Shown here one piece after another: positions 4,195-33,501 of a stretch of DNA of 64,000 bases. The notes beneath the pieces are model-generated. The model saw only the letters and a list, made by a program, of their open reading frames with translations. It was not told where the DNA came from and did no database searches. Numbering within the stretch: position 1 is the stretch's first letter; each line of letters opens with the position of its first letter. Made by a program: the position numbers and the translations under genes. Origin of the DNA: Pyrenophora tritici-repentis (lineage: Eukaryota; Ascomycota; Dothideomycetes; Pleosporales; Pleosporaceae); contig NC_089390.1 in the NCBI RefSeq assembly GCF_003171515.1, positions 7,254,001-7,318,000 on the forward strand, read 5' to 3'.

Positions 4195-7100
4195 CGTGAT
4201 TGTAGGGCTAGAAAATATTCGCTGGATTGAAAGACGGTTTGAGTTGATGATAATGATGGGTTGAGGGGAGAATTGAGGGGTTATATACTGTAGTATTCTA
4301 TCAGCATCCTCAGATCTATCAGCGCCATTGTTGGTATATTACGCCGACATATATCCCCATTATTCTGGTGTCTCGCGCGATAGCCTACAATAGTTCGGCC
4401 TTTGCAATGACAACGCGGGTACATGAAGTTTCGATATTGAATTCCGTCTCATACCACCTTTTTTATTATGTGATCTTGTACAGTTGTTGGACTAAGACAC
4501 TTCGTAACAGAACCTCTGACTACTGCGCACATCCGCATACTGCTATGTGGACATGTAGATTAAGTTTCGTCTGTATTATCAAGGAGTTTTCATGTTGAAT
4601 ATAATTCTTTGGGTTTGCGCGTGGATCATGCAATACGAGGCCGGCGTTATGGTTCTTGTTCTAAGTGGATTCAATGATTGCATGAGCTGATGTCCCGCCT
4701 TGTGGAAATTTTCCAACATGCACGTTACTGATGACATACCATCCGGGTAAAGTTGGGGCTGTTCTGGGCCCAAAAAGAATGATCAATGTAAGCCTGACGT
4801 CAGAAGGAGTCTACAAGACGCTGCTGAAATGTTCTGTGTGCTTATGCCCGGTCTTGTCCAGTGCGGAACGCATTGATAGTTGGTGGTGTTGTTGCAAAAA
4901 TAACTATGAGCAGAACGTGCGGTATGCTTCAAGAATACTTCCTGCTGTAATGTTGGACTGTATCACTTCTTCAATGGTTATATATATTACAGTCAGTCTC
5001 GACCTTTCTGCCATCGGGTACGGTGACGCGGACTATCTGGCCTTGGGCATCGCAGACACAGCATATGGACTCGATATGATCCGCCGCTGCAGACCTCAAT
5101 TACCGTGGTTCCGGAGAATATGACATATCTAGTATCGAGATGTTCAGTCGTGTGCACCCAACAGCTCACCACCAACTCACTATCGCTCCTGTCTACGGTG
5201 TATACCCTCAGACGCTACAAATACTGCACCACACTAGTTTACCAATGTTTTTTTTGTCGAGTTTTGTCAAGTATCTTCAATTTAGCCAGTGGAATCAGTC
5301 AATTCTCACTGTAACAGGACCTTTCTGAGAGGGGGTATATTCAGTCCTTCTTTACTTTGGTCCGGAAGAACACGAATTCCAATCTGACTCAATTCACATG
5401 CGCCCACAGCAAGAGTAATACGGCGTATCATAGTAGAGTCTTAAATGCAGTCAGACGATTAGAAAGGTTCTTGTTAGCTTTCCCTCGTACGATCAATTCA
5501 TTGCACTTGTGGCTGTACATACGTGACAAGATGATGTTTGAAGGAATGAAAGGGGACATATTGATACAAGAAATCCAAGCAAAGATGAGAATTCACAAGC
5601 ATAGTCAGGAAGAATAGAGTCAACCTCTCGTGATGCTTTTTGGGAGACATGTTCCGTTGGCGCGATCAAGATGCGGGGGATGTACTGAACAGTGGCATGG
5701 CACAGACCATCATCGTGAAGATTGGCCGGTCGGATGTCGCAGTCAGGCACCGATAGGTCAAGAAATTACACGTGAAGAAAGTGGTTCTACTGATATTTGT
5801 CTGGTCTTGGGTAGATAAATACTGGAGAAACCTAGCGACTAGATACGCGTGAAACTCATGTCATTCTTAATCCTTATTCTGAGTTACTCTCTAAAGTCTC
5901 CACAGGTCCAAGGATATCAAATTCAACATCACGGTCATCCAGAGGGGTCTCTCATAAAACTTGATGTCGAACCATGTTGCGTTGCAGCAGAATGCCACGT
6001 CGAATCGATGCAGACTCGTGTGTGGCCTATGCCATCACCGCATGATGCTCTCGGTGATTGAGCTGCTGCGGGCACTTCTATATGGACTCCTCTAGGTCCA
6101 TATAGATTCCGCCTATGAAAAGTGGTGATGGACACAAAGACTAAGGCTGGTGCACTGGGTAGGTCTAAGATGTGGGTATTCTTGGTTGAGGGTAAAGCTG
6201 ATTGCGGCTCTGTACCAGTAGTCGACTCCAACACTTCCCGAGAGACGTGATCGAATATCCACGCCAGCTGAGCCCGACTCCTACAGGAAACCATTTGCTA
6301 AATCCGTGATAAGTTGTACATCTTGCATACAGCATGCATGAGCATGCGATTTCGCTTGACTTGAGCGACGACTTGGGCGCGTGCTCACCTGCATGGCTGT
6401 TGTTTGACCTCAGCTACACTGTAAAGCACTTCAGTGATGACTCTCGAAGTCGGTATGATTCTTGGATCCTGCCAATGAATCGGCGGATGGCTATCATGAT
6501 GACTCCTTGATGCTGCGGACACCTAGATGGCACTACTCTCAGGCACTACTCATTGGGTACATGCGCTAGATTCGCTACCGATCATATAGCAACATGCACC
6601 CAGTAGATCTGTGGTGCGACGGCTGATAGAGATGGATGTATGGTTTGTTCCACCACTAAGTGGATATTGAAATAGACGACACCTGATCAAAACTGCATAT
6701 GTGTAGTGCGCCACTCTGATCGGTCAAAGGGAAGATACATGGAGGTGACTATCGGACTCAATTGCCTAAACACAGTTGTAACTTGAAATCAGGCTTTCTG
6801 CACAACTTGCCTACCAATAAACCATCTAGGCGGTATACCACCTACGCATACATTGGGCTCATGACGTTGTACATTGTGTGCGTGATGCAGCCGAACGGCG
6901 CCTAGTGGTGGTTCAGGAGTCTGGGACGGGTGGTGGTGGGGGGCTGCACGGCATCCCGACATGCGGCACCAAGGTGTCTTCCCGGCGCGAGACCGTTGGA
7001 CACTCGGATGACCAGGGTGTTCGGAAAGGACCGAGCCGGTACAGACAAGCCCGATAACTACAACTGTTGTTGCTCGCTATATCAAAGCTGCCACAAACAG

Positions 7101-9277
7101 TACAGTTGATCAAGGAATCAACGATACCTAGTTAGTTATGGAGTATGGTTTGGTCGTTTCAGCTCGCCAAATCGGCGCGATTATGCCGAAACTAGCAATC
7201 ATCAGCTTCAGCTACATATGCGACGCAGTGCTTTGATGTATACTGATTGGCCGATCGTGACTTACTAGAGTTGTTGCCAATCAAAAACGCCACGCGGAGT
7301 ATACTCCCTACGCAAATCAAACACTTCCCGCTCAAGAGTTAAACCCAAGGTCGCCGCTTTTACGATAGTGATGGTATCAGCCATCTCACGATCCCTCGTC
7401 ATAGCCACTGCAGGAGACGTCACTAGGAGCCTTCGTACCGGAACCGAGTATTATGGCAGTGGTATCATGAGAAGGACTAAAGTACGCGATTGCCGCGTCT
7501 TTGGGTATTCAGCCTGTGTACAGCGCATATTTGGGCACGCCTGCATAGGATGTATTGCTGCCTCGGCAATTCTATGCTGGCATCCACCCATTCGCTTCCT
7601 TCTTACCCTGGCTTACCAGCTTTTGATCCTTTCCCCGAGGTCATATATGCGACCAGTGATACGTGGCTAAGTATGACATAGATACCGCTCTGATATAGTG
7701 GCGCAGTGTACGTAGTATGCATCTGAAACGGATTTCTCGCATTCTTGTTGATTTCCGCCCGAGTCGGCCAGTCGCTTTTTAAGCACTTTGGCCCCATACA
7801 ACGCGACTGCTCCAATATGTAGTAGCCCAATGGTATCAAGGCGGTGGTCAGCCATAGTTTCATATTCGATTGGTAGATAAGGCAGGCTTCTCCTGAACGG
7901 CGGGATGTGGCTTAATCCGAGCGGTGCGCGCCTTCAAGCGCGGGGCGCCTCACTGCCCAGCTACTTCACAGTCTCACCGGTGCCCTAGGTATGATGGATT
8001 CCGTATGTGACAAAAGATGCATCAGACTAACGCGAAATCATTTTTTCGCCACTGAAACAAACCTTAACTGAACTTCATACCTTCAGAGATTTTGAGAATA
8101 TAACGGAAGTTTAGGAAGAGAGAGTGCGTGGACTGACCGGAGAGTGGATATGGATGTGACGCGGGGTCGTGCAGAAAAAGGAAGCCCCATGTCGTTTCTG
8201 CCATGGGGCGCAAGTCGTGCAGGTGAGTGTGCTGCCTTGGTATCTTCATGTGAGCTCTCTGACTGTGCTGCCTTCTTTTTCTATCATCTGTCCCAGTCCA
8301 AATCCCCGGGTAATACAGCCATCATGATCACCGAGTCGAGAATTTTTATTATTGTAACCTGGATCAAAGTATATCTTTGGCTACAAATTTTGGAGGCATG
8401 AGTCGCTGCACGGATTCAGGTGAAGCGGTGAAGCGGGGCAGCCGACAGCTACCCGCGTTTTTGTGGGACTAACTACTGTAGTAACTCGCTGGAGGTCTGC
8501 ATCTACTAATGGAGGTATACCGAAGAGCCTGGTTGGTGTTACTATTGCGCCTCCGATACATCAGAGATCGCGATCGACGCGAGACGGTATTGACGCCTGT
8601 ATGCAAGATGAAACGCGAATCAAGATGCTAAAAGGCTATGGTGTCTCTATTCACATATGATGACCATGGCTTGTGTGGAAGTTCGCAGAAATTACCGATG
8701 GTGGCACAGATGCAGTAGTATCTCCCCTATCTTGCATGCTTAATTTGACATCAGCTCGGGCTGAAATAGATGCGCAGTAGTAGCAGTCGATAGTGGCTGG
8801 CTTAGGTTTTAGTCATGAAGGACCAACCAGCAGCATAGTGTGACACGATGTCATTGCAACGAACAAGAGTGCAGATCGTAAAAGTATTGCTTTCATTCAA
8901 AGACTCCGCGTTGTCCAGTCGCATGCTGTAATTACTGTAGATCGTATCTGTGCGAGGCTGGAATTGTGAGCAACCACTGATCCAAACACACTACACGTGT
9001 TTCCTCCTCTTCTTCCCTAGGTCTCGCAATGACCATCGTTAACCAGTCTTTATCCGAATATGTGACTGTAACCATGTTAAGCAAATCCCAGATCGTAGAG
9101 AATGTGAAGGGATTCGCGGAAATAACCAATAACAGTTCGAAAATTAAGACAAAGGTGAGTATCCAGAACTCCGTTAGGAAAATTTCCAGGGTCAACACCA
9201 AAACAACATTTTCCACTGTAGTGTGGAGAGCTTCTCGTTGGAAAGAAGTTAATCAGTTCTGAGAGGCAAGTAGGTTT
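4195..9277. other. 5-kb region without a supportable gene
   Basis: Only short, mutually overlapping ORFs on both strands, none with a recognisable motif, codon pattern or splice-linked continuation. I see no LTR, terminal inverted repeat or tandem array. It may hold decayed sequence or non-coding transcripts, but nothing can be assigned. Confidence 0.5.
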
Positions 9278-10606
9278 TCATTGATTCTTTCGTAGTAGCT
9301 GTTTGATCCATAGAAAAGGGGGTCTTCCTTTGGTCCATTTGCTCAATTGACTCATGTCCCCGATAGTGTGTCGAGGGAAATACGGGCTCCGTTTCAGAAG
9401 ATTGGCCCTGTTCTCTTCTGCTTCTACATCAACAGGAGACGAGGACTGTTGATCAGAGTCCGCATCCGTGAAAATCCGATCTGGTCTGCCTTTGTGTTGC
9501 GAGATTACTTGGTTGTCTGAGCGCTTCATATTTATCGGAGCGTTTGAAGTTTCTCCAGAATCGGTTGAAATGTGTAGCGACTCGGCTGGTGGCCCGTGGT
9601 CGGCATCTCCGAGTTCCAATAAGTGAGGTATGCCGATTTTCTCGTCCTGTAATTCTACACCTTGTTGAAACTGTGTCCCTACACTGTTCACAATCTGCCC
9701 ACTCTCTGATAAATCTTTTCCCCAGGGATATTCGGCCCAGCTGCTAGGTAGATATAAGGTGTGCGGATAAGCCTTTCGCAAACAGGAATGTTTTAGCAAG
9801 TCCGAGTGCCACCAATCTAGATCTTTATTGGCTTTTGAATCGCTTGAATGATCTTTCTGAGAGACTTCATGTTCAGTGGCTCGGCTGATTGAAGGCTGGC
9901 GCGCTATTTCACCGCTGACAGGAGCATCCGACTCAATGGGGTTGTCGTCAAGGTCGTCCAGCAAGTTATCAATGAGCTTTGCTTCTCTTGATTCGTATTT
10001 GATCTCTTGGACATCAAAACCGTTTTCGGCTGCCTCGTAATCCGCCTCACGTGAGCCGAGAAGATCTCTTATGTCGTCGACTTCCTGGATAGCTTTCTCA
10101 ATATAGTCAGGTAAAGCAGATCCTTCTTCCTGAAGAAACCGACGCAATTGTAATAGAGCGGAACCTTCTTTCTCGCCAAGCTCCTGCCGTATGTTCCGAA
10201 GTCTTCTTCTTTCCAACTGTAGGCGGAACCGGGAGCCTTTCAGATCTAGCCTTCCGTCTCTCACTCCTTCGTATTGATCTTCAAGTTGAGCTAAGTTTTG
10301 GTGTTTATTTTTCGGATATTTCGAGTAGGGCTGTGTTGTTGACACAACAGTCGTAGGCGAAATGGTGAAAGGTGGCGGAGGAGGAGGAGGGGGCGGTGGA
10401 GGTGGTGGAGGAGGGAGTCCAACGAGTCGCAAGGGGCGGACATCAGGGTCCAAATCGAACTCTGGATACTCCATCTTGCTGTCTCTGTATCTGCCTTCAC
10501 CCTGATGGCCAAGGGTAGATGGTGGTGTCACTGGTCGTTGGTAATCGAAGTCCGACACTCTCGGTCCCCACGGAGGTACAATCCGGGCCTCTGTTTGTTG
10601 TGACAT
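9278..10606 (-). CDS. A1: polyproline and coiled-coil protein of unknown function
   Basis: Single-exon 442-residue protein, first member of a three-copy local family. Order of parts: a disordered N-terminus with a YPEFDLDPD motif; a run of 15 prolines (residues 65-79) coded by imperfect CCN repeats; a long charged heptad-rich region (about 95-215: LKGSRFRLQLERRRLRNIRQ and following) ending in E-I-K-Y-E-S-R-E; and a Ser/Asp-rich C-terminal half containing DLDWWHSDLLKHS, which loosely resembles a Trp-rich motif clearer in A2 and A3. In this copy the polyproline lies before the coiled coil, whereas in A2 and A3 it lies after. No signal peptide or membrane segment is seen. It is divergent from the DUF6590 gene B1 (707 bp between starts). 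Function unknown; protein-protein scaffolding is a guess from the composition. Confidence 0.7.
   Translation of the reverse strand: MSQQTEARIVPPWGPRVSDFDYQRPVTPPSTLGHQGEGRYRDSKMEYPEFDLDPDVRPLRLVGLPPPPPPPPPPPPPPPFTISPTTVVSTTQPYSKYPKNKHQNLAQLEDQYEGVRDGRLDLKGSRFRLQLERRRLRNIRQELGEKEGSALLQLRRFLQEEGSALPDYIEKAIQEVDDIRDLLGSREADYEAAENGFDVQEIKYESREAKLIDNLLDDLDDNPIESDAPVSGEIARQPSISRATEHEVSQKDHSSDSKANKDLDWWHSDLLKHSCLRKAYPHTLYLPSSWAEYPWGKDLSESGQIVNSVGTQFQQGVELQDEKIGIPHLLELGDADHGPPAESLHISTDSGETSNAPINMKRSDNQVISQHKGRPDRIFTDADSDQQSSSPVDVEAEENRANLLKRSPYFPRHTIGDMSQLSKWTKGRPPFLWIKQLLRKNQ
10377..10414 (-). repeat. Polyproline-coding trinucleotide repeat in A1
   Basis: GGN-type imperfect triplet repeat on the plus strand, read as 15 consecutive Pro codons in A1. 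Such tracts are prone to length change. Confidence 0.7.
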
Positions 10607-11312
10607 CTTGAAATGCTGGTGTCACCACCGACGTGTCAGTTTCGTCAAGACAGCATTTATCGTTTCTTCTGCACGCCAACGCATGTACCCTTTTCAACTG
10701 TGTTTTGCTTATTTTAGCACTTAACCCATCTTTACTTCTAGTCGTTCTCTTTTGGTCCGCAAAACTGAGGAGAGATTACTGGTGTCATAAGAACGATGTG
10801 GTAATCCGGGCAGGAGGTCGTGTTTTGCAGAAGGCTTCGGGTGATAAAGCGACGGGGGTGGACGAATGCGGCAGCAAGGGCGGCTAACTCGACACACCTC
10901 AGAGCCCAACCACAAAAGCATAAGCCCATCTAGTCGCCTTGATCGCTGCGCCGTCATGCTGCGATATGGGGGAATTGAAGCGATATGCAGCGACCGGAGC
11001 AGAACACGAAAACGACCTAGTGACACACCCTGGTTTCCACCGCTGCTGTAAGTTAGGCCCCGCTCTCTCCCACCTCCCACATGAGCGTACAGTAACGCAT
11101 CACGCTCCCCCACCACTTCAACAGAGGTGTGGCATCGGCAGTATGGCTATAATGGTAGATGAGATCCGCTGTTCATTTATCCTGGCACCATGCGGCTCTG
11201 CTGCATGTCTGAGTACTGTTATTTGTGCATAAATGCATGTATGGTCGTGTAGTTAGCCCGAGCTTGCCAGTAGTCGCAAACAGCGTGTTGTATGCACGTA
11301 CCTTCAACAGGC
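10607..11312. promoter_or_regulatory. A1/B1 divergent promoter region
   Basis: A 706-bp interval between the divergent start codons of A1 and B1. It corresponds in position and size to the A2/B2 (866 bp) and A3/B3 (786 bp) gaps. By eye I find no long sequence shared by the three. Confidence 0.45.
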
Positions 11313-12313
11313 ATGGCAACACAACCACAGCAGTTTTGGAGTGAAGCAGATAGGCGCTGGCTCAGAACTCAGATTGACGCGCAGTATCGGCGTTTTCACG
11401 AATATTATGACACAGGTAAGGACTGTTCCGATTAGTATCCCATCACTACTAAGATGTGTTCAGAGCAACGGCAATGGGTATTTTTCAGATGGGTAGAGCG
11501 CGCGGACTCTCCTTCAGCGCAGCAAGCCGGACCAGCGGGCTACCCTAGGGGTGAAGGCCCAAGGGTGGAGGGGACTTACAATCTTCTGAATCCGGTACCA
11601 AACAGTAATTACGAGAGATTGGACACATGTAAGGATCCAGAAGCCATGCGCATTCAGAAAGTCGGCTAAATTGCAAAAGCGTACTATGTCAGACACAGGG
11701 ACTTTTTCCAGCCAGGCAAGGTACTGTGGCTAGAGCTCATGATTTCTACGCGCGAAGCTAATCAAATGGAGGTAGGTATTTTCGGTGCTATTCACCGAGG
11801 GAGCCGGGTCTAACACGTCCGTACACAATTACAAGAGAGACGCCATCACAGTCGTAATGTTTGGAGAGATGGCGCATACACAGATCCGTCGGTTCATCGT
11901 CGTCCATCAGAAGCGCGAATTTTGCTACGCCCTGTAAGTCCCCTAAACTCCTGCCATCTCTGAAGCCGTCCTAATGTTCCCCCAGACCCATTTTCACGTA
12001 TGGAAAACAAGGCACAAGGAAACCTGGTGTTGTGCCCAGTGAGCATGCGATTGCGCACTCGTACGGCTATCAAGCTACTCTACTCCCAGGCGAAGCAGAA
12101 CTTGAAAAAGATCCTATTTGTATTGTATCACCTGATGGTGCCCCTTTATCGACCGCTTCCCGGATCTACTTTGGAATTCACCATCCGATCCAGTACAATG
12201 TCAAAGTGAAAGACCTAGGGTACGTTGTACCTGCTGACGTCTCCAAATTCACCCAGTACTGGGCCATGGAAAATGGAACCCTCACCAATCAGGGACCGGA
12301 AGCTGGACAGTAA
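11313..12313 (+). CDS. B1: DUF6590-domain protein
   Basis: Five exons, 11313-11415, 11464-11628, 11680-11771, 11836-11933 and 11986-12313, give 261 residues. The fold region runs from about residue 90 to the end: YYVRHRDFFQPGKVLWLEL, then FGEMAHTQIRRFIVV, then EFCYALPIFTYG, then a HAIAH segment and SRIYFGIHHPIQYNVKVKD. These are the conserved blocks of the fungal DUF6590 family (a domain with no known role, as I recall it). The N-terminal 90 residues are specific to this gene and rich in Arg, Trp and Gln. No signal peptide is seen. Introns 2 and 4 match intron positions in B2 exactly (phase 1 before the YY/YQ block, phase 2 after the CYA/YAW block). It pairs head to head with A1. Confidence 0.83.
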
Positions 12314-14761
12314 GAGGAAGAGTCTCTGCAACTTATCTAGCAGACAATCTGGATGCCAGGGTTGCTCGTTGATTTCATACTTGTGTTTGCCAATTTGAAT
12401 GCCGGTTTTGTTATACGCTGCTTACTGAGCTATGCCACGAGCATGGTCGTCGTCTTGCTTTACGTCTTTTACTAATTTAACATACGTTGCGTTTTGGATT
12501 TTTGGTATCTAGGGTTACTTTGGCTGCAATTTTTTATATGATGATGTCGAATTTGCTCCGTTCACCTTATCCGTTAGCTCTATACTCTCTGTTATTATAC
12601 AGTCACTATTCTATCCTATGACAATACCGAATATCTGACTGTTGTCACAATTCTGATTAATTCGTCGCCTGCGTTAGTAGATATTTCTCTACAAACGCCC
12701 GTGCTGTCGTGTACTGACGAGTCGTTTCAGAGATATTGTTGATGTTGTTCAATGTAGATACCATTGAGCACCGTAAGGCAGACTTCAAGGCATACTCAGC
12801 TTCGCACCAGCCATACGGCGCCACCCCAAGCCACTGAAATGCGCCACACGATGATTCTCCGCGTATCGCTGCAGGAAAGTGGGTCATCGGAAAACAGAGC
12901 CGCGTATTTGGGACGACGTTACGCAGCATTTGAGTGACAGGATGAAGTTCATGACTTACAATTGTCACAACCTGTTGAAGAACTATTCGGTTCATATATC
13001 TTGGATATGTACATAGATGTATTGGCAAATCATTGTAGTTCAAATCAGATATCTCGCTCTACCGGTATGCCACCAGCCCAGACTAGGCTGAGTTGGGAAG
13101 CCGCGAAACGCAACGCGATCAGCCCATTTCCGCCATAGAGTCATGCACTGTTAGCAAAGGTAAAAAGCCACCAATCTACAGATCCCGGACAGTATACGTC
13201 AAGGATTAGGTTGATGATACAACTATCACGCTGACAGGCATCCATATATACCCCTGACACGCTGATAAGTCCGTACCCGATACCCAACGACATGCCTCGG
13301 GAGCGAAACTCGATATCTTTCAGCTTTCGCGAGCTGGTTGCCATATCTGCCTATACATTTTATTCTTGTTCCAGCGGTATCAGCCTCATATCTCGGCGCG
13401 GGCCACTTGAAAAGCAATATCGCTTCACTCGCCTCGACCAACGGTACCATTGGACAATCCAATATTGCCAGCCGCTTTCTCATCTCGCAGTTGAAATTCA
13501 TACAAGACATAACTGGCTCATTGATCGGTCAGCGGATCTACCCTCTATCACTCTGCGACTGCTTGTAAAGGGGGTGCATGGTTTACCTCACTTCCAACTT
13601 GGCCTGCACTATGACCCTGTTTGTTGGAAGCTCCGCGCATCCTAAACACAGTGCATGGAGGCATACCTACCAAGTGCAAGAAGTCGAAAATACGGCAGCG
13701 CGCAGTCAGCCGACGTCGAAATCAACCAGTCCGAGATAGCAAAGTGTCCCTGGGCGGTTGGATATGACCTTGGAAAGGGAGTGGGCGTGTAGGTAGGCGC
13801 GGGAGTTATCTGCAGATAAGTGGGGCGAGTGGGGTTAGACTACGTAGTTAGCATATTAGAACCAGAACTTCAACGAGGCTGAACCAACAGCACACAATGT
13901 TGCCCGGTCACAAGAGCAGTCAATCAGACTGTATCCAGCATTTCGACGCAACGATAAGGCCAAATTGTGCATTGCCCTCTTTGTTCCTACCACCACTCAC
14001 CACGTCACATTCACACAAGCCGAGCAAACAGGCTTCCAATACATGTTCAGGCGCATCTAGGCACTTTAGGTCCATATAAAGCAAACCCACGGTCTCCGAC
14101 CATACATGACCACTCATGCATGCATCGGGGACCCGGTTGTGCGGCTTGCCATTCCCCGGCCCGAGACATGATCGCCTGAAACCAACAGCCGAGTGGCTTT
14201 CGGAATCGTGCTGATGACATCTGACCAAAGGGCTGTCACGGCATGAGGAGTCAGCAGCTCACTCGTTGACCGCTTTCTGCATATGCGCTCATCGCAGGAG
14301 TGGACATGTGGACCATGCAGACCGAGGGACCGGATTAGTCAGAAATCCGACAGGCATGTGATGATACCCGAGGAAGGCTTGCGGGGGAAGACGGCCTGGG
14401 AATCTTTTCGCGTCGATTTGGGGCGTTGATAGGTCTGAAAATATGGGCTGTGTAGCGATTTCGAGACGACGTTAGATTGCGTGGTAGCTGATGGCGAGGT
14501 AAAGAAAGGGATCGGATTTTTGCGCGAGCGAGACGAGAACCGCCTCTGCGGCCTGGGTGAGCTACTATTCGGTAATAGGGACGTCTTTCTTCAAAGCGAT
14601 ACCTGATATGAATTTGTAGTCATTGCGACATAAGATATTTGAACAATAGTAATACATATGTTAGACAATAGAGAGCCCCGATAGACTGAGGGTAATGGAA
14701 AAGAAAAATTCAAAAGTACAACGCCAGTACCACGCATGTTATGCCCTTAGAATGATCAAAC
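12314..14761. other. Convergent gap between pair 1 and pair 2
   Basis: About 2.45 kb between the stop of B1 and the stop of A2. ORFs at 12657-13043, 13141-13344 and 13226-13510 on the minus strand contain some protein-like text but are broken by stops and frame changes, and I cannot name a family. The gap length nearly equals that between pairs 2 and 3. Confidence 0.4.
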
Positions 14762-16809
14762 TTAATCATATCCAGGAGTGGTCCTACTTCGCTTGAGTTT
14801 GTTCCTCGGAAACAGCCCCCATATTCGTCTTGTCCGGCTCATCGTCTCTATCCAGCGGTCAGACACTGACTTGGAGAGGATCTGCATTCGTCTATTGGCC
14901 TTCTGAGGTTCATAACCCGTTGTATTGATGGCCGATAGCGGGGCACTGAATGTAGCCTCTTCATGGACATTTGAGATGGGCTTGTATAGGGAGGGCTCCG
15001 AGAACGCCCTATCGGTTGGCAACTCTTTCTTTTTTTTACAACTTGATATTGATGTAGGCTTCAACTTCCCAAAATGGAGCGTATGATTGTGGATCTTGGA
15101 GCCCGATTGTGTTTCTTGGATGTTCTGAACGCGTGCTAAGTCAGCCTTTTGGCCAGCTTGTTTCTGGTGCTCACTTATGACACTATCCTTCCTTTCTGAT
15201 TCATTGAAAAGACGAACAAGGAAGGGAGCCGATGGTTTCTTGGTGGCTCCGTGATTTGTATTGAATTCATTGGAATTCGGTGATTTGGGTTTGCCGTTCC
15301 TGTTGAGCGACACTCCATCTTCTGGGACAACAGGTTCTAGAGTCCTCTCCGATACGCTATTCACAAGCGGCGAAGGCGGTAATGAAATTAGCCAGGGATA
15401 ATCCGAATCCGAGAAACTGATCGCGATCGACATGGATTTGCGACCACGTTTTTCGGGATGGCGGTTTTCACAATCTGATGTATCCTGTGGCGACGATAAA
15501 GCAGTGTAGCACTGCTTATTGTTTGATACGTCATTCTGAGGATGAACGGTATGGCTCGTGCCATGGATTGAAGGCTCGTAATTTTCAACGAAGTCTCCGG
15601 TCTCGCTCAGACTATCGCGGTCCCAGTACTCCTCTGCAATTCCTTGCCAGTCGCTAGCGACTAGGTCAGAAACTCCAAACTCCTCAAGGACGTTTCTATA
15701 AGAACACTTCTCGACAGCACTGTCCTTCAGATACTGGAGTGACCACTCTCGGATCTTGGTTTTGGTAGCGGGATCATTTTCTGTGAATGAAGCATCACTT
15801 TCAGCATCCGTCCGTGGCATCGCTGTTACGCGTACTGAAGTATCTTCGGGCAATATCCCCGCATCCGACTCTTTTCTGGCCAACGCCGCCGGCTCGTAAT
15901 GATGATGCGGTCCCATGACTCTGAGTGGCAAAGCTTTCGTCTCGCCAGTGAAAACATGATGTAAAATTCCAAGATGTCTTTTCGTGAACGATGAAGACTT
16001 AGCCTCTGATACGTCGTCCATGTCCTCCTCAAACAGTGCCTCGTCTTCTTCGTCCCAGTGGATATTATCTGCTCGCTGTTCTCTCTGTTGATCAAAGTCC
16101 ACCGTCAAGTCATCGATTTCGGTCATTATCGTGGGGTATACCCGTTGCGATAGGATTGGAGATTGTTTAGTCGCTAGTTTAAGGAACACAGGTGGTGGAG
16201 GCGGAGGCGGAGGTGGCGGAGGTGGCGGAGGTAGGTTATGAGTCGCATATGGTCTGTATGATTGAGCCGGATATGTAGGGGGGGAAAGGGCGGCGGCGGT
16301 GGTGGTGGTGGTGGTGGTGGTGGTGGAAACAAGAACAAGGGAGTTCTCTGTCGTTGATCTTGCGGGTGAATGTCGTCGTTCTCGAAGCTTTCAGGGATAA
16401 TGCTATGAATGTCGAACTGGTAGAATGTATCCTCTTGATCCAGATATTTCCACTCTTCGCCCGTGAGATCACGTTCAGCTTGCAGATAGTCTTCCTCGAT
16501 TTCTCCAAGATCATCGCGTATCTGTGCGACCGTCTCATAAGCCTCAAATAGAGATAGTGAGAGCACGTCGTCATACTTGTTGACGAACTCTCGCAGACTG
16601 CTCATAAACCTCGCTTCTGCATCGCCCGCTTCCACTCGTTTCAGATGGACTTTGCGACCCGCAGTGCGAAGTCTTTCGCGTTTGACTAAGAGCTCTTTTC
16701 TTGCTGTCCCTATCTGGACCTGATATTCTGACAGATCATCTAAACTTCGTCGTAGTTGCGTGAGCAGTTGTCTCGCCTGGGTTGTTTGTGCATCGATATA
16801 CATTCCCAC
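14762..16809 (-). CDS. A2: coiled-coil/polyproline protein, apparently frameshifted
   Basis: Two overlapping frames form one gene. The first (16809-16174) encodes an N-terminal coiled coil (about residues 10-125, ending LTGEEWKYLDQED) and 13 prolines (162-174). The second (16189-14762, open further upstream through another 14-Pro run) encodes an acidic region and the motif W-x2-x-YL-x-D-S-x-x-E...W-x5-EEYWDRD, resembling a Trp-containing helical motif common in fungal coiled-coil proteins, then a basic C-terminus with RRIWGLFPRNKLKRS. One base is missing or extra where the frames meet; the C7 run at 16278-16284 is the best site, as one additional C would make the frames continuous. The alternative is a roughly 97-bp intron with a poor donor (GTTTCC) and acceptor CATACAG that removes the first polyproline. 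Divergent from B2. Function unknown. Confidence 0.6.
16190..16330 (-). repeat. Double polyproline-coding triplet tract in A2
   Basis: Two GGN triplet runs on the plus strand (about 16190-16232 and 16290-16327), separated by 57 bp that contain a G7 homopolymer (16278-16284). The left run reads Pro in the second A2 frame and the right run reads Pro in the first, which shows the frame change lies between them. Confidence 0.75.
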
Positions 16810-17675
16810 TTGGTTATTCTTCGACTGCTATTCGGACATGAAAATGGTGTTGCGATCGCGCTGGGTTAGAATCGTATGATGCTCTTGGCTCAGTGAAGCT
16901 AGTAACATCTTATGATTATCAAGAATGCTCTGTGCAACCCACTAACCTAACAAGCAGTGTCGGGAATTATTCAGATCAGTCAGGTTGCTGATGCGAAATA
17001 GCGGCATGCGTGGTGTATCTTAAGGCGCTGCATGTCAGGTAGAACGCGACACAAGGCTTGTTCCAGGCATGGATCGCGGCTTTGTCGTTTGCGCAGTAGT
17101 TCGCGGGAAGGAGCCAAAGCCGGCAAGCCGACCATTCATCTGTGTGGGATTGACATGAGAGAAAGCAGCAAATCAAACAGTAGATGCATGTAACCCAACA
17201 GCATAGCCATGGCATTGGATTATGATCAGGCTATGTGGCGCGAAACAAGATCCACTCCATTGGGAAGGCGCCCAGGTGCCGCGCCATGCCTGTTTCATTA
17301 CTGTAGAACCGGTCTAAGACAACATTCGGCTAGAGTCACCAGAACAACCCTCGCACATCCCGACTGCACAACGATAGCAAACAGTGCACATATGCGAGTG
17401 AGAGCGGGGTGATTTACAGCAACCTCCCTCCGACATCATGCATCTCACTCTCTCTGTGGTTGGTAATGACAAAGCAGCAGAGCCGCATCGCATCACTTGA
17501 CTGGAACTTCTAGTTGGTACTTGGAGATATAAGATCGCGGTGATTTACCAATTATGAGACCAAACCGTACCTCCCTACACTTTTTCATCGGCCGTGCTTG
17601 TATTGCGTTGTGCACGCCACCATTATACTAGACTCCTTCGATCGCTAGCCCCATCGCCCAGTAGCAACGTGCGAC
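16810..17675. promoter_or_regulatory. A2/B2 divergent promoter region
   Basis: An 866-bp interval between divergent start codons. Several short ORFs, none recognisable. No clear TATA box was found. Confidence 0.4.
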
Positions 17676-18639
17676 ATGTCGAATACCAATTCGCCATGGA
17701 TTTGGGACGCTACCTATCAAGACTACTACTATGTCACGCGCGACCAGTATGGTAGGTGCCGATGCCTCTTTAGATAGCGTTATCGAGAGCATGCGCTGAT
17801 TATGGCAGGGAGCCCTGTATACAACTGGTCCAAGTCGCTCGGCAGGACTGACCCGGCCGTTGGTCGAGAGAATGAGATGATAGAGGACGGTATGACAAGC
17901 ATGTGAGATGAATGCGTTGATTGCGCCTAATGCATCCCTGTTAGTGCCTCTTGAGATTCGCGCGAACCCACGGTTTATTCCAGGTACGCCCCAGACTGGA
18001 TGGTATGACCTTCTAGATTCATGTAAGTAGAAAGATAGAAGAGAGTGTGACTTAGCTCATCTCTTCCTTACAGCTTACCAAATGAGGAGTGGATCCGACG
18101 CTCGGCGGTTCTTCGTAGAGGGCAGAGTTTTTGCTATGCTCTACAGTGAGGCTGCAGGCCAGACAGCGAGACCAGACCCAGGTGATGGGGCTTTTACTGT
18201 TGTCCGTTTTGGCGAGTCAGTTCATACCAACATCCGTCGTTTCGTTGTTGTCGAGATTAAACGAGGCTTCGTATATGCCTGGTAAGTATTTGGGAATCAG
18301 CCAGCGTTGATAACCAGCTAATGCCCTACTAGTGGTATCGCCACGTACTCTCACCGTGGAACCCTGAAGCCGGGCTGCAACCCAGTCGAACACGCCATCA
18401 TTTACTTCCGAGGAACAGATCCAAGCTACTCCTATCTGCCGGGCGAAGTTGAAGGCGGCATGACCAAAGCCCCAATTGAGGTTGAACCTGCCGATCCCGC
18501 CATGACCCTCAAGACTGATTCTCGCATTCGATTTGGCAAGATCTATCCAATCGAGATGAACGTCAAGGTCAAAGATATCGGCCGTGTGAGCTCGGGCCAC
18601 CTGAGCCTGTTACGCCAGTATAGGGACGACGAACAGTAA
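17676..18639 (+). CDS. B2: DUF6590-domain protein
   Basis: Five exons, 17676-17751, 17809-17889, 17945-18022, 18074-18281 and 18333-18639, give 249 residues. The start MSNTNSPWIWDATYQDYYYV lies after a short leader. The domain spans about residue 78 to the end: RRFFVEGRVFAMLYSEAAGQ, then VRFGESVHTNIRRFVVVE, a YAC-GIATYS block, then VEHAIIYFRGTDPS, and SRIRFGKIYPIEMNVKVKDIG. This is the copy closest to the family consensus I remember (GRVF-x-ML, RRFVVV, EHAIIY, NVKVKD). All splice sites are canonical. No targeting signal. It sits 867 bp from A2 on the opposite strand. Confidence 0.87.
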
Positions 18640-21086
18640 GCAAATGAGTCCCATCTGCACCCATACTTCTATTCCCTGGGAGATTTCTGGTTTATTTTCA
18701 CACATACGTCGTCAACTCTCCTGCCAAACCTCACGAGATTATCAATCTAACGGCCGCCTGATATCAAATTATACGCTGCGCTTCGGCGCCTTTTACCATT
18801 CAGCCAGTTATACAATCATCATCTCCTAAAATTTATTCCAATCAGAAAGCTTCATTGGGATGTGATAGTTTTGAATAGCCCATGGGACCATGACCGGATA
18901 ACGTCGCTACGTGTATTCATGCTCCCACGACAGTATCGCTTATACGATGGATCATGTAGCCCGTGGAGTATTTCTCGGTCAAGTCCCATGTGGAATGATG
19001 CCTAAGCCGTGCACGCATCTATCACTCTCCGAATCGAGGTCGCATGTAATCACGTGGCTGATATTCCGTGGTATTATCCGCATCCCTGTTGGAAATCAGA
19101 CGAGAACCGGGATTGTTCAGCTTACACTATAATGGAAACGATCGGTGAATGGAAGTTTTTAGAGCCCGAGCCTTCGGGCCGGTCAATTGGCATGTATGAT
19201 TGCTTTGCCGTGGTGGCATATCACTTCAGCCCGTGCATTGCTTGCCGCATGTGACTACAGCATCGGACTTGTGGTGGCAATGAGTCTTCATGGCTGTATT
19301 CGGGTGCTTATACCGACAGAGATATCCAGCCCTTTACTATGTTGCTTTTTGGCCGTTTTGCGGGACCAGTAGCTGTGGTCTCAGCTCCTACTTTGGTCGC
19401 TGTCGCTTAAAGACCACTTTTTGTTTTTGTTAAAGGTGCAATTCCACGACATGCAATCATTGCCTGCAGTGTTCAGAAGGCTTGCCATATCGCAGCTCCG
19501 TTTCCGAAGGCAGCATGCCATATTGTGATACAGTTTGAAAGTCGCACTCGTAACTGACCTTCTTATCGCGACGACAGTTATGGCTCGTTGGATTGGCCCA
19601 TTGATTCGATTTACCCACGCCGTGGAAGAGCCCAACCAATGAAGTCTCTCGTGAGACCTACTTCCTTGCACAGTGTTACTGACGGCGGGAACGATCGAGT
19701 ATATGTCCCGAGCCGCGTCCCACAGGAAGCCGGAACGAAGGACATGCTATGTCGCCGCACACCGGTCAATGTGCGCTTGGTGCTTTATCGAGATCAGAGC
19801 AGGCAAACAGTGCCTTTACGTGAGAATAGTCAGAGCGAAGACGTGAATAGCCACACTGAGCAACTGCTGTAGTACGTGGGACTCGTATCGGGGCATAATG
19901 ACGGTCGCATAGTCGGTCGTTTCGTCCCGAGGCGATGACCTAAATGTGGGTCCATCAGCGCTAACCATTCCCGTACCGTTCGCGTGGACATAACGCAAAT
20001 TCCGGTTTTGACGCCTTACGCCTTTTCCGCCCCGGAGGACCATTTCAAGGCACTGCACAGTAAGCTGCACTAAGAGCGGTTTCACGGTAAGGATGAAGAC
20101 GCGTTAGCTTCGGCATGACTAGGTAACGTGGTGAACACATGTTCGCAGTAGCCGCAGGCTGGACGGAGCGGGTTGCAGACGAACATGTGATGTCATGGGT
20201 CCCGGCTTCTACTTTCCCAACAACCCTGGAAAGCTCAAGGCAATGGATTTTCAGAGCAGCAAGAACTTCAAAGGCAAGATGTCACTGTGGTCCTTCAATA
20301 TTCCTGTGCTAGGCTTATCCTTGATTTGCTTTTTAGCGACCCAATGGCGTGTCATGACTTTGCAGGAGTGAGAGAATGTGGCTATCACGTCCGATCCGGA
20401 TATAGCAGATCCATAAATATGACTTTCTAAGAGAGTTATTGGACCAAATTTCCCCAAGCTTGCAGATTCTAGCAGAAGTCCTGCATGTGTCGAATGCCAG
20501 CCTTGGCGATATCAAGCAGGCAACGGCATCCGTCAGTGCCCTGTTTAGACATCAAAAGGAGAGTAGGGCTGTTATTCATTGATATGTAATGGAAGGGGGA
20601 CTGGAACAAAGGCAAGCAGTCAAAAGCAATTTGTGAGTGCAATGGTGGCACCGAGTGCACAGCATGCGGCTCAGTCATTGCCTTGAAACAGGATTGCGAT
20701 TTGCCTACCCGCAACGTCCCACCTATCACTGAACCTCCGGATGCGGAAAGCCGAAAATGGAACGACTATGAAGATTTTTCCGTTTCCTAGTTCTCATTGA
20801 TACATCAGGTGATCACGGCTTCACAAGGCTATTGCCAAGCCGTATTCTAAAAGTGGCTTTGTTCTCGCCCTCATGATGACCCTCTGATCGCTGTACATAG
20901 ATACTAGTACGTAAATTTCATGGAACAGAGTATCAATAAACGGATCTGATCTGCAGGAGGATGATTGGAAGAAGGCACAGAGGGGCAGAGAAACCTATGT
21001 CCCAAGGACAAATCAAGGAGAACATCAAAATGACATGTGTTGTAAATTTTTAACTTCAGATCCAATAAGCACAATCGTATAGTAAA
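18640..21086. other. Convergent gap between pair 2 and pair 3
   Basis: About 2.45 kb without a gene I can support, equal in length to the gap between pairs 1 and 2. Only short ORFs on both strands. I could not align it by eye to the earlier gap. Confidence 0.4.
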
Positions 21087-23000
21087 CTAGTCGTATGAAG
21101 GGAACGAAAAAAACGCCGGACTATCCTGGTATGAAACGCTTGAGTAGGGTAGAAATTGCAAAAAGGGATGATCGGGAAGCGTTTCGTCGTCAATCTCGAC
21201 AAACAGCTCAATCGGATTTCGGTATGTGAATTGGGACTTGCGAGGATCCGCTCCATTTTGAGATTGGTCTGGAGAATATTCTGGGTCGCCGGATGTGAGA
21301 CTCGGTGAGGCTATCTGATTGTCGGTGTTCAGTACCAAGCTTGGTTGGCCGCCGATTGGTGAAGGCTCGGGAGCACGCTCAGTATCTGGAATTTCTGGAA
21401 GTATCGGTTGTGTAAAATCGGCACCCTGGGGTGGGGGTTGGTTCCCGAGAGTTGTCGTACTTTCGCTATCAATGCCTGTTGAATCTCGCGCCTCAGGTCC
21501 CTTGATCTCAATCACAGACTGCCCTGCACCACATGATTCCCTCCGACCAAGAGTACTACTCTCTCCAGAAGAAGTGTATGCTGTTTCTGCCTCACCCCCC
21601 CCCGGTACATTCGGTAATCCCAGATGAGGCGCGTGTCATAGCTGTAGCTTTTGTGGAGCCTGAGCGGTCACTCAAGGTCCACCTCATGGAGTTTGCGGGC
21701 TCGGCTTCGGGTTCAAGAAGATCGCTAGCTTCGATCTTAGCTGGGAAGTGGAATGAATCCGGATCATCGAAAAGGTGATCAATGGGAAATAAAGGGTCAG
21801 TTATCGATAGATTGGCTTTCGAATTGGCCGAGACGGGCCTGAAGATCGGAGTGGAAGATGCTGGCTCGCTGGGACTGCCACTTGATGCTACAGTATCACC
21901 AGTGGGGGGCTCGATATCTTCGGATGTATCAGGGGTCCAGTTCTCCTCAACAAGATGCCACCATCTCTTCTCGCCAAAAGCGGCGTGTAGCAAAATCTCC
22001 TTGAGTAAAGTCTTTTCCAGTTTTGACTCTGACAATATCTCGAAAAGCCAATCGTCTATGCGACTATGGGTCACTGACCAACTAACCCGATCCTGCTCCA
22101 AGGTGGTATCTCTTCTACGCCGAGACGCCTGTGCAACTTCTCCAGCCTCAACTACAGTATCTGGGGGTTTGTGGTATCGTTTGTGGAGAGCACCCGGATG
22201 ATGAAAACTCTGAGACCACATCAAGCTGAGGTTCCGACCGCTGGTCGCCACGAATGTCTTGAGTGTATGTATCTAAGTTCATAGGAGATCGACCCAGTGG
22301 AGGTGGGGGTGGAGGCGGTGGCGGGGGGTCGCTTGGGTGGAATCTGCGAGTGCGACTCACGATGAGGGTTTTTGTTCGTGGCGTTGAGAGACATTTGCGA
22401 GCGGTTATATTGTGATGTAGTCGTGGCTAACGTCGGTCCAGTTAGGTCAAGATGGGCTGGCAGATATGTAGGTTCTGGGGGGCCAGAAGAAAACTGCGTT
22501 ATGGTTTCCGTATCTACGTTGCGCATCTCAAGTAGGGGTATGGGAAGACTTGACGCATGTAATGCAGGTCGCTGTCCCGGCAAGTCATCCACAAATTGAG
22601 TTTCTTTCTGCGTATATCTCCATTCTTCAAGGTTGTAGATCTCCTCTTCATGCTCCAATTCGCTCTCCGATTGTATCAGGCCCTCCCTCATGCTGTTAGC
22701 CTTTGATATTGCTTCCTTAATGTCGTCGGGTAGCTCAATGCTGTTCTCAGCAAGAAATCGTGTTGTTCGGTCCAAAGCCGTTGCAATTTGCGTATCTACT
22801 TTCTCCCGAGACTCTCGAAGTTCTCGACGCTTGGTATGCAATCTAGACCGAGAACCGACCAGGTCGTCTCGAGCGTCTCGTAGCTCATCTTGCTGCTCTT
22901 CAATATAGTCCAAGAGGTCCTGATACGGATCTATGGTAGGTTCCATTTCGAGATACTGCTTGTGGGAAGCCGTAGGTAATCTCTCAGCTTGTTCAAACAA
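21087..23000 (-). pseudogene. A3: coiled-coil/polyproline gene with several frameshifts
   Basis: The same family as A1 and A2, split over four frames. 23000-22221 encodes the coiled coil (about residues 30-150, with EEQQDELRDARDDLVGSRSR and EEWRYTQKETQFVDD). A second frame reads ten prolines and LGRSPMN (within 22360-22148). A third (to 21592) carries IDDWLFEILSESKLEK...WWHLVEENW, the counterpart of the A2 Trp motif. The last (21515-21087) is Pro/Ser-rich and ends FFSFPSYD. Each break can be explained by one extra base in a homopolymer: C6 (22323-22328), probably C5 (22163-22167) and G9 (21595-21603), all given in plus-strand coordinates. The G9 break also has a GTGAGG donor beside it but no good acceptor. 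Divergent from B3. Either a decaying gene, a slippage-prone one, or consensus error. Confidence 0.6.
22163..22328 (-). repeat. Polyproline tract and homopolymers in A3
   Basis: GGN triplets on the plus strand around 22298-22325 encode Pro10 in one frame. Runs G6 (22323-22328) and G5 (22163-22167) flank the segment where the A3 reading frame changes twice. Confidence 0.6.
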
Positions 23001-23786
23001 TGTGTGTGGGCTCCCTTTTCGCGGGAGTGTGCACTAATAACGCTCACATGGTCACTCGGCGATAGGGGCTGAAGATGCAGATGTTCAAGAATAGATCTTC
23101 CATTCCTCAAGTACCACGGATCGAATTGTCGTGAGTTATCAGAAGTATGTTTGAAGGTGAGGGGCTGTTGAGTCAAGCCAGATGGGACATGCGTGACACT
23201 ATGCGTGAATCAGTGTCGCACGAAAGTTTCCATTGGCGAAGTAGCAAACCTGGGTGTGATGTCGACATGTGACTTTGTGGATGAGTGAGATGGCTTGCAT
23301 ATATTATTCGATGGCAATGGAGCGTTGTTAGGCTGCAGCAGCGGCCACCAAGACGTAAAGCGAGGAGCGGCCAGAAGGCGTTAATATGCGACCCGACAAT
23401 GGAGACCCAGAACATTACGGTGTGAACATGGATCGCAAGCGCCAATGCGTGGCTTTAGCGCGAGGTATGTATGAATCGATTGCTACAGGGGCTGGCTCGT
23501 TCGATAACAGCGCCATGCGAAAGCCACGCGCACCAAGCACCAGGGTGCGCAACCCTCAGCAGAACATGGGCTGCGGCTCCACCAATTGCACCCCTCTGGT
23601 CTTGGAGTCATCAGCGCATGTGCAATTGTCGTAAACGAAGTTGCATAGTATGCGCTGTTCCCTATTGCGCCTTGGAGAGCCACATACTTATCACTTAAAA
23701 CTCCCCAATGGCGCGAATCGACGTGGCCTTTGTGCCCTCTAAGAAACATTGTCGTGGCATGTCGTACAGTTTGTTTGCGCGTGACC
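23001..23786. promoter_or_regulatory. A3/B3 divergent promoter region
   Basis: A 786-bp interval between divergent start codons. Overlapping short ORFs only. Confidence 0.4.
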
Positions 23787-25498
23787 ATGTCTGCGCCAAA
23801 TGAGCCTTTTGATCCCAGCCGAAATCATAACAATCGTCAGAGACATGATCCCGAATCTCGTTAGTTACCGGTGCGCTCATGCGTAACAGGATAAATCAGA
23901 GCTAACTGTGGTTAGACCCGTCACCGCAGCGTTGGAATAGCGCACAGAATCCGAGAACCCCTCCAGGGTACGTACACTCAAAATCCCCATTGAGTTACAT
24001 TACTGACATTGGTGCAAGAAGAACCACTCGGGCCGAGCCTCATGATTCTGGATACACATCGGTGCCGCGATATGGACCACCTTTCATCCCGGGTACAGTG
24101 CCCTCGTTTTATGGCGGTTCCGAGCAAGGCGGATATCAGATAGTCAGCAACCAACTACAACCTCCCTACACAGCCCTTGGTCCGAATTCAGGGTACCCTG
24201 GGGTTCCCTCTCCCTCACCCAACTATGGACCTCCAAGAAGGGGAAGCCACCCACACTCTCGTCGCTTACCAAGAGGCGAAGGATCCTTGATTGAAAGTTC
24301 ATCTCCAGAGCTGTCTGAGAGCGTTGATCCCAGCTATTATGTAAGGAGTAGAGACTTCTTCATCGAAGGCAGAGTGTTTGCCGTCATCATGAACGAGACT
24401 GCCGGAGACACTTCGAGACCGCTTGACTACAACACGTCGCGGTCCCTGAATAAAGTGAGATTCAACAACAACTGGGTCTACACAAATACTCGTAGATTCA
24501 TTGTGGTCAGGAAGAAGCGCGAATTCTGCTATGCTTGTCCCATCTTCACTTATTCTGGAAGAGCAACGACCAAGAGCGGCGTGGTACCAGGAGAGCACAG
24601 CATTGTCTATTCCCGAGGTACAGATCCTACGCTTCTCAACGGCGAATATGGTATCACGAAACCACCTATTGTCGTCGATATGACTGCGGGTGAAAACTAC
24701 TTACAATTTGCATCACGAATCTATTTTGGGATCCATCATCCTATCCAGTACAATGTCAAGGTCAAGGACGTTGGCCAGGTACCAGAAGAGGCTATTCCGC
24801 TGCTCATCGGAAACTGGCGAGAAGAGAATCGCGCCGATCAGGACTCGAGGCAATCAGCCAGTGTTACGGATCTTGCTGAGGTAGACGAGGAAGATGAAGC
24901 AGGCGAGGAAGAAGAAGAGGAAGAGAAGCCTGTCGATTCTTACATATACCACGCCAGGTATAACGTCAAAGGTTACCATCCTCAAATCAGTCCATATAGC
25001 TATCACCCTACGCACAATCTCTACGGTTGGCACGAGACTTTGGCACCAGAATGCTACCACCCTGAACACAACAAGGAGGGATTTCACTACACCGGCAACC
25101 GCTGCGGTTACCACAGCGTATCTAATCCATTCGGTTACAACTCCCAAATCGCCCCAGACAACTACCATCCGGAGCTGAACCCCGAGGGCTACCACTCGGA
25201 AAAGAACCCCACTGGATATCACCCAATCTCCAATCCGACTGTCTACAGTAGCAAAAGGAATCCGCATGCCTATCATCAGACGAAGAACCCCTATGGGTAT
25301 TCGACAGTATACTACCATGCTTATCACCCGGTCCATAACCCGCATGGCTACCACTACTTGCACAACCCGTACGGGTATGATCCCAACTCAAATCCCACAG
25401 CGTATCATCCACAGTACAACCCGAACGGTATCCGCCCGCCAGTCGTTGCCGACAGCGTGGGCGACATAACACAAGCTCTCCAGGTTACGACTTTATGA
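23787..25498 (+). CDS. B3: DUF6590 protein with acidic linker and YHPxxNPxG repeat tail
   Basis: Exons 23787-23859, 23916-23967 and 24019-25498 give 534 residues, twice the size of B1 and B2. The start MSAPNEPFDPSRNHNNRQRH and two small introns (GTTAGT...GGTTAG, GTACGT...GCAAG) are my model; without them no in-frame ATG precedes the domain. Residues about 42-145 are Gly/Pro/Tyr-rich and probably disordered. The DUF6590 domain follows (SRDFFIEGRVFAVIMNETAG, NTRRFIVVRKKREFCYACPI, EHSIVYSRGTDP, SRIYFGIHHPIQYNVKVKD). A Glu-rich linker (about 320-345) then leads to 18 nonapeptides (about 349-510). It lacks the two introns shared by B1 and B2, so the domain lies in one exon. Paired with A3. Function unknown; the His-rich tail could bind metal or polymer, which is inference only. 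Confidence 0.85.
24947..25429 (+). repeat. 18 tandem 27-bp units coding for YHPxxNPxG
   Basis: 483 bp read as 17 nonapeptides plus one octapeptide, consensus Tyr-His-Pro-x-x-Asn-Pro-x-Gly. Examples are YHPELNPEG, YHSEKNPTG, YHPVHNPHG and YHPQYNPNG. The units differ at the DNA level at many synonymous sites, so the amino-acid pattern is kept while the DNA has diverged, which argues for selection on the protein. Confidence 0.92.
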
Positions 25499-25915: not shown

Positions 25916-26127
25916 TGTGGTAGAGGGATAGCCTCAATAGTCAGAAGAGAGGCTGCCGACCCGCAATCGGTAGAGAGTAGAGAACAAGAAGGTATCCGAA
26001 CAATAAACGGTAGTATTAAGAATGGTGTACGATAACTGTCGAGCTCCTCTACGCGGAGTCGTCCTAAAATACTCAACCCTAGCGCCGATTACCTAACGCC
26101 GAACACGTGACAAGCTACTACACCACA
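25916..26127 (-). repeat. 3' LTR of the Ty3 element
   Basis: 212 bp with ends TGTGG and CCACA. Read base by base it matches the LTR at 33502-33713. Confidence 0.95.
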
Positions 26128-26142
26128 TTTTCCTCCCCAGCC
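26128..26142 (-). promoter_or_regulatory. Polypurine tract of the Ty3 element
   Basis: On the coding strand GGCTGGGGAGGAAAA directly abuts the 3' LTR, the expected place and composition for the plus-strand primer of reverse transcription. Confidence 0.75.
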
Positions 26143-26456
26143 TCCAGCTTGGTCCCCTCAAGCTGCCGAATGCCTCTCAAAACTATCCGACCCGCTTTCG
26201 ACGACTCCTCCGACTGTCTCGCGATGCCTGCCGCAACCTGCAACCATGCTGCCTTCCTGACAAACACTCGCGTTTGCTCCTCCACCTCCGAAGCGCTCTT
26301 AACTAGTCCAGGCCAGAGGTTCTTGTTGAAAGTCCCTCCGCAAGCCCACCGCTGCCTTCAACTGCTCTCTCACCTTACAACCACGGCAGCGATCGCCTCT
26401 CTTCTTCCCCAATAGCTGCTCGGTGATGCTAACCTCCCCAGCCTCTTCTGTCTCCC

Positions 26457-33497: not shown

Positions 33498-33501
33498 AAA
33501 A

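Follow-up and report, generated by a model that had tools for sequence, protein, structure and literature searches.

Three divergent pairs of coiled-coil and DUF6590 genes in Pyrenophora tritici-repentis, with a predicted MazF-like fold in one DUF6590 domain

Three coiled-coil genes facing three DUF6590 genes

Do two kinds of gene that stand head-to-head three times in one locus belong together, and what might their products do? The question is raised by a window of 64,000 nucleotides, the whole stretch of DNA analysed here, which covers positions 7,254,001–7,318,000 of contig C1 (9,912,450 bases) of the wheat tan-spot fungus Pyrenophora tritici-repentis M4 (a fungus of wheat leaves; assembly of 40.9 Mb in 41 contigs). 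Three genes for coiled-coil proteins on the minus strand, here called A1, A2 and A3, alternate head-to-head with three genes on the plus strand, B1, B2 and B3, whose products carry the domain DUF6590 (PF20233). Hence, the three divergent pairs reported in a first-pass annotation are confirmed. The pairing is real, and pair 3 is conserved in the sister species P. teres. Furthermore, the DUF6590 domain of B3 has a predicted MazF/PemK-CcdB fold. Tentatively, and at clearly less than even confidence, we favour the reading that B is a MazF/PemK-fold protein, probably an RNA-binding or RNA-cleaving effector, with A as a dedicated partner that restrains or targets it. The features are listed here in window positions (aa, amino acids; ORF, open reading frame).

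9278..10606, minus strand: A1, a single ORF of 442 aa; a proline run at the N-terminus is followed by the acidic coiled coil and by a tail with a Trp-rich stretch and a basic C-terminus
10370..10414, minus strand: A1 polyproline run (ends approximate), preceding the coiled coil; also in P0001
9962..10309, minus strand: A1 coiled-coil domain, from alignment and genome search
10607..11312, no strand: divergent A1/B1 intergenic region, 706 bp, start to start
11313..12314, plus strand: B1, DUF6590 gene with introns; nearest in the genome is the gene on contig C3 (81% over the domain)
14762..16803, minus strand: A2, beginning with the coiled coil; frame change inside proline-codon repeats (intron or frame break)
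16414..16803, minus strand: A2 coiled-coil domain, from alignment and genome search
16804..17675, no strand: divergent A2/B2 intergenic region, 872 bp, start to start
17676..18640, plus strand: B2, DUF6590 gene with introns, the most divergent copy; groups with Plenodomus P0108
21087..22946, minus strand: A3, with coiled coil, proline codons, Trp-rich stretch and long tail; its deposited model, PtrM4_028230 (P0117), has introns
22581..22946, minus strand: A3 coiled-coil domain; two-helix hairpin predicted in the P. teres orthologue
22947..23786, no strand: divergent A3/B3 intergenic region, 840 bp, start to start
23787..25498, plus strand: B3, whose product carries DUF6590 and, in its C-terminal part, YHP/NPxGY repeats; orthologous to P3342_000445 (P0006) of P. 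teres
24326..24838, plus strand: B3 DUF6590 domain, predicted MazF/PemK-CcdB toxin fold

All three B genes (B1 in two stretches) exceed the curated Pfam cut-off for DUF6590 of 27 bits when scanned in six frames, exon by exon. Measured from ATG to ATG, the genes of a pair are 706, 872 and 840 bp apart. The distances first given were 706, 866 and 786 bp; the first of these stands and the other two are replaced on the basis of the ATGs found here, the start of B3 lying upstream of the ORF start at 23906.

The coiled coil common to the A proteins comprises about 120 residues, with an identity in the alignment of 34% between A1 and A3 and of 24% between A2 and A3. When used as query against the genome, the coiled coil of A3 found A1 with an E-value of 4e-14 and A2 with 0.026, that of A1 found A3 with 8e-14 and A2 with 2e-4, and that of A2 found A1 with 1.5e-4 and A3 with 0.17. 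The weakest link is the one between A2 and A3, which is marginal in both directions (E 0.026 and 0.17), and A1 joins both. At the end of the coiled coil all three share the signature E-x-x-Y-x3-E. The charged coiled coil with its end signature, as initially described, is thus borne out by reciprocal genome searches and by the alignment.

Pairing in the genome and in P. teres

The genome search scores its best candidates only, hence the counts are lower bounds. Each of the A coiled coils detects just A1, A2 and A3 in the M4 assembly, and all three face a DUF6590 gene. The DUF6590 profile gave seven matches, which make up four genes: B1, B2, B3 and one on contig C3 (piece L008, about 6812–8353; deposited as PtrM4_085480, P0106), the second domain of which is diverged. 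A transposase ORF (DDE_1, HTH_Tnp_Tc5) lies upstream of this fourth gene at L008 4244–6316; the guess that an ORF downstream of it is HeLo-like found no Pfam support.

In P. teres f. teres, the orthologues of A3 and B3 bear the consecutive tags P3342_000444 and P3342_000445 and lie on one contig, as judged by its length. Between the two species the A3 coiled coil is 95% and the B3 domain 93% identical. Within P. tritici-repentis, the A3 coiled coil is identical across four cluster representatives and the B3 domain is 99–100% identical in three. The P. teres relative of the C3 gene, P3342_007091 (P0088), is located on a different contig from pair 3, and its deposited model stops at the start of the C3-type second domain. 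No second P. teres A was found in the A searches of the protein database. An association of A with B is therefore supported, since all three detected A genes face a DUF6590 gene and P. teres has retained pair 3.

A predicted toxin-type fold for the DUF6590 domain

The B3 DUF6590 domain, modelled alone, is predicted to form a MazF/PemK-type barrel over nearly the whole MazF chain. The residues that matter in MazF were compared next to this model. In the MazF of Bacillus cereus and Bacillus subtilis the catalytic pair is reported to be Arg25 and Thr48 (PMC7354611). In a set of 50 MazF/PemK sequences, which combines 29 from an initial collection of 82 with 21 of 30 PemK loci, Arg29, Pro50 and Thr52 of E. 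coli MazF, which we took as equivalents, are conserved in 48, 49 and 47 sequences, respectively. Among the 103 rows of the DUF6590 alignment, Arg56 is found in 102, Arg57 in 99, Pro72 in 100 and Thr75 in 101 (Ser in 2). B1, B2 and B3 all keep the Arg-Arg and the Thr, and B2 has a Gly at the position of Pro72. When run at a loose accuracy threshold, and hence with low confidence, hhalign joined both families over 104 columns and placed Arg56 on Arg29 and Pro72 on Pro50.

Several results weigh against a kinship with MazF. In the loose alignment Thr75 comes to lie one residue after Thr52, and the MazF residues Pro30 (49/50), Asn40 (48/50) and Pro19 (48/50), whose conservation equals that of the catalytic ones, have no visible counterpart in DUF6590. 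The B3 domain model contains a low-confidence insert at about residues 21–50, following the first strand, which MazF does not have, and Foldseek returned no match to the model with E ≤ 0.001. With the PemK_toxin model PF02452 there were no matches in the M4 genome at E ≤ 10; of 14 controls, the same search picked up E. coli, B. subtilis and C. glutamicum. Searching the PDB sequences with the DUF6590 alignment by hmmsearch yielded no MazF, the one match being a low-complexity acidic sequence. Likewise, the hhalign score between DUF6590 and MazF was not above that of column-shuffled MazF profiles: it was reached by 33 of 100 shuffles, by 21 of 100 in the -glob mode with only 12 columns aligned, and, after removal of the insert, by 33 and 19 (-glob) of 100. 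With a narrower MazF profile, built from 82 sequences, hhalign was no more successful. A proof of kinship from sequence is therefore rejected, and because the profile tests were negative we do not file B as a member of PF02452, only as MazF-like in its predicted fold. The link is a structural one, taken from the predicted model of one domain. Moreover, such a fold match shows no function by itself: CcdB has the same fold, lacks the active site of MazF and is a poison that acts on gyrase.

How DUF6590 is used elsewhere bears on the same point. Pfam assigns no role to this family (PF20233), and in open-licence literature neither the word DUF6590 nor, in combined searches, PF20233 was found. A search with the B3 protein gave 113 relatives from 210 candidates within a length window of about 0.55–1.75 times 530 aa, which leaves out short DUF6590 models; the named relatives examined are fungal. 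B3 itself (models of 478–553 aa) ends in tandem YHP..NPxGY repeats at about 24900–25450, and by a simple pattern at least three GYHP-type units occur in 40 of the 113 relatives. For the N-terminal part of B, a reading as WW- or OCRE-type was dropped; the motif pattern matched few. According to the database domain column, a protein kinase domain is fused to DUF6590 in four of the relatives (P0036, P0040, P0072, P0109); for P0040, the only fusion scanned, it was confirmed by Pfam. The Plenodomus protein P0108 has a long N-terminal extension with a PF26082 region according to the same column, which our own Pfam scan did not find.

These data can be read differently. The B barrel could be of MazF type and serve as a non-catalytic recognition or scaffold module in fungal signalling proteins, with A as a coiled-coil adaptor and the proline runs and B repeats as interaction surfaces. 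The kinase fusions and the position of DUF6590 behind PF26082 fit this view, as do the frequent GYHP-type units, which resemble interaction repeats, and the lack of sequence similarity to active MazF. A scaffold, however, would not need Arg56/Arg57 and Thr75, which are so highly conserved at or next to the catalytic residues of MazF in the loose alignment. We regard this explanation as somewhat unlikely, and as one to be kept in mind. For B as an effector partnered by A, the kinase fusions and the PF26082 region are of interest as well, since this wider domain use fits a regulated output.

Age of the lineages

The DUF6590 tree started from the 113 relatives and our four own domains. Of these 117 sequences 105 passed the domain filter, and after the P. 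tritici-repentis rows P0003 and P0005 had been dropped 103 rows remained, with two genes present twice, namely B3 (from the window and as P0004) and the C3 gene (from the genome piece and as P0106). The tree is rooted for display only, and its bootstrap values had not converged. B1 clusters with the C3 gene and P0088 (support 100/99) inside a group of 16 rows that includes Alternaria and Clathrospora (97/98). B3 clusters with P0006 of P. teres (100/100) inside a group of 81 rows that includes Phaeosphaeriaceae and Curvularia (97/80). B2 and the Plenodomus protein group together (100/100) on a long stem (1.46). Because these well-supported groups include other genera, B1, B2 and B3 are, judged by their sequences, old and separate lineages and not recent tandem copies.

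The A proteins show a much narrower distribution. In the protein database, the only relatives to turn up were Pyrenophora proteins and the JGI protein P0001, although the search needs shared words of five residues and A relatives at about 40% identity or below may escape it. The A1 query retained two of 1116 candidates at E ≤ 0.01 and the A3 query five of 266 at E ≤ 10. P0001, from a contig of 4,264 bases, is 73% identical to A1 across the coiled-coil region, and Ptr902_00254 (P0002) is nearly identical to A1 except for a segment that is spliced out in its model. A may be equally old and, in other lineages, have been lost or have diverged beyond the reach of this search; alternatively, it may have spread at a later time in a DUF6590 cluster that was already there. 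The closest pairs are A1–A3 in the genome searches and B1–B3 among the B proteins, the B identities of 50.0, 48.4 and 47.8% being too alike to be informative. A repeated co-duplication of both genes, as first suggested, is thus not established, given the different B lineages and the restriction of A relatives to Pyrenophora and P0001.

The nearly equal gaps between the pairs (2448 and 2447 bp) had also been noted. Between the two spacers we found neither a DNA repeat of at least 25 bases nor any ORF similarity, and the equal spacing as the mark of a duplicated unit was rejected; nothing in the sequence lies behind it, and it looks like a coincidence. A regulatory motif common to the three divergent regions was also rejected. 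The k-mers present in all three are at chance level, with 20 7-mers (chance mean 18.4), two 8-mers (1.7) and no 9- or 10-mers.

Could the pairing then be accidental? DUF6590 genes might have accumulated at this place and an unrelated A family of Pyrenophora might have expanded between them, the proteins not cooperating at all. In favour of this are the different old lineages of B1, B2 and B3, which speak against recent copying of one pair, and the divergent regions without a common motif beyond chance. Two further points count for it and at the same time against our own reading. The coiled-coil genome searches found no A beside the C3 gene, and this gene thus agrees in part with what the first-pass annotation named as a sign of accident, namely DUF6590 genes elsewhere that lack such neighbours. 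Furthermore, the A searches gave no match in other genera that have DUF6590, and A is therefore not a general partner of the family. Accident would leave unexplained, however, that all three detected A genes face a DUF6590 gene and that P. teres keeps the pair with 93–95% identity over the domains. We judge it unlikely.

Features of the A proteins

A polyproline run occurs in all three A proteins, as stated initially. It is not one homologous feature because its position differs, ahead of the coiled coil in A1 and behind it in A2 and A3. Nor do A2 and A3 read through in one frame in the M4 assembly, contrary to the former description: the frame shifts in or near the proline codons in both. For A3 the M4 annotation splices the proline-codon part out, and the models from other isolates differ. 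The P. teres A3 model, P3342_000444 (P0120), is uninterrupted, with 618 residues including a proline run.

A second common feature is the Trp-rich stretch C-terminal of the coiled coil. For the C-terminal single-frame parts the local score was reached by 0 of 1000 shuffles for A2–A3, 3 for A1–A3 and 21 for A1–A2; for stretches picked by eye these numbers were 0, 10 and 2 of 1000, respectively.

For P. teres A3 the predicted model shows a two-helix hairpin (residues 6–68 and 74–121, pLDDT mostly 67–82). Outside the hairpin there is no confident structure, only weak helices at 285–306 and 311–334, which correspond to the Trp-rich stretch. The protein is acidic, with 108 Asp+Glu against 51 Lys+Arg in its 618 residues. 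Its whole-protein model (5 sequences, mean pLDDT 43) is poor overall and did not enter a fold search, and a Sec8_N match of A3 (E 0.003, under the cut-off) was judged to be coiled-coil noise.

Mobile elements around the cluster

A long terminal repeat (LTR) retrotransposon at 25916–33713 begins about 420 bp past the end of B3. It contains Gypsy-like ORFs at 26457–33084, assigned by eye, and terminal repeats of 212 bp (25916–26127 and 33502–33713). As these repeats are identical, a recent insertion is suggested. Another copy of the LTR, 92% identical, is located on the opposite side of the A/B cluster at 3453–3682. Farther away, a transposase ORF (951 aa) that has a hAT dimerisation domain occupies 54128–56983, and an ORF of 1763 aa at 58623–63914 appears by eye to encode a Copia-type polyprotein.

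Proposed function

In their action the A/B pairs may bear some resemblance to the toxin-antitoxin modules of bacteria. B would be a MazF-like effector with putative RNA binding or cleavage. A, an acidic coiled-coil protein with a long and mostly disordered tail, would bind B, perhaps via this tail, and would hold it in check or target and place it; being made from the facing gene, A could be produced together with B. The purpose might be a regulated growth arrest or cell death, in defence, non-self rejection or selfish maintenance. The scheme is supported by the gene arrangement, the detection of A only beside DUF6590 in this genome, the presence of pair 3 in P. teres, the predicted fold of B3 and the nearly invariant Arg and Thr, which the loose alignment puts on or beside active-site positions of MazF. 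The cutting of RNA by B, the binding and inhibition of B by A and the arrest or death as purpose are steps which we infer.

Pair 3 is not hypervariable. This counts against our reading and also against a self/non-self system with diversifying alleles, and the diversifying copies formerly proposed are not supported for this pair in view of the identities between both species. Nor do the results point to a surface role. A self/non-self relation of the A/B pairs is possible, and the MazF-like fold makes this idea more concrete.

In its widest form the proposal would make DUF6590 a eukaryotic branch of the MazF superfamily, present in Pleosporales and fused to kinases, and the Pyrenophora locus a two-gene module of toxin-antitoxin type with a lineage-specific acidic coiled-coil inhibitor, of which three long-separated versions lie side by side. 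Taken together, we hold this to be quite improbable.

Comparison with known systems

To our knowledge, the MazF toxin fold is known from prokaryotes only. When the literature was searched for MazF or PemK together with fungal terms, no fungal MazF study was among the matches listed, and both words are absent from the two fungal immunity papers that were text-searched; by these searches, the predicted toxin fold of B was not found in print. A MazF-type fold, if true, would turn the uncharacterised DUF6590 into a testable candidate for an RNase or toxin and mean a eukaryotic use of a toxin fold. If A restrains B, there would be a fungal two-gene module like bacterial MazEF, with a bearing on fungal immunity, non-self rejection and selfish elements. 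In any case the function of the A/B pairs is now testable.

Within DUF6590, B1–B3 match the family profile, and the locus stands out by three members of separate lineages clustered together, each facing an A gene. B resembles the MazF/PemK (Kid) endoribonuclease toxins (PF02452) in the predicted fold of B3 and perhaps, going by the low-confidence alignment, in a conserved Arg and Thr that fall on or beside catalytic residues. It differs from them by the lack of detectable sequence similarity, the insert, a greater length with N-terminal and repeat regions, and facing genes instead of an operon. Likewise, in contrast to a type II toxin-antitoxin operon, the A and B genes are adjacent but divergent, 706–872 bp apart.

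Among fungal systems, Spok of Podospora and Fusarium shares the toxin/antidote logic and a coiled coil (PMC12693581). That the A/B pairs are a selfish toxin/antidote set of this meiotic-drive type, kept because loss of the antidote kills, would suit a toxin-like predicted fold with an acidic partner and transposon-rich flanks including the element with identical LTRs beside B3, but it is very unlikely, since several isolates as well as P. teres carry pair 3, which looks stably kept rather than patchy, and since Spok unites both functions in a single gene.

For B as a MazF-like effector under the control of A, the fungal two-gene immune clusters are the other comparison. In gasdermin/protease and het-S/nwd2, two neighbouring genes form a functional unit, one encoding a cytotoxic protein and the other the protein that controls it (PMC10197012), and the A/B pairs would be like them in this. 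The Pfam scan of the A1, A2 and A3 pieces and of B3 gave only DUF6590 over the cut-off, with none of the gasdermin, HeLo, protease or NLR domains, although diverged domains could escape it. The effector fold of the A/B pairs would be of another kind.

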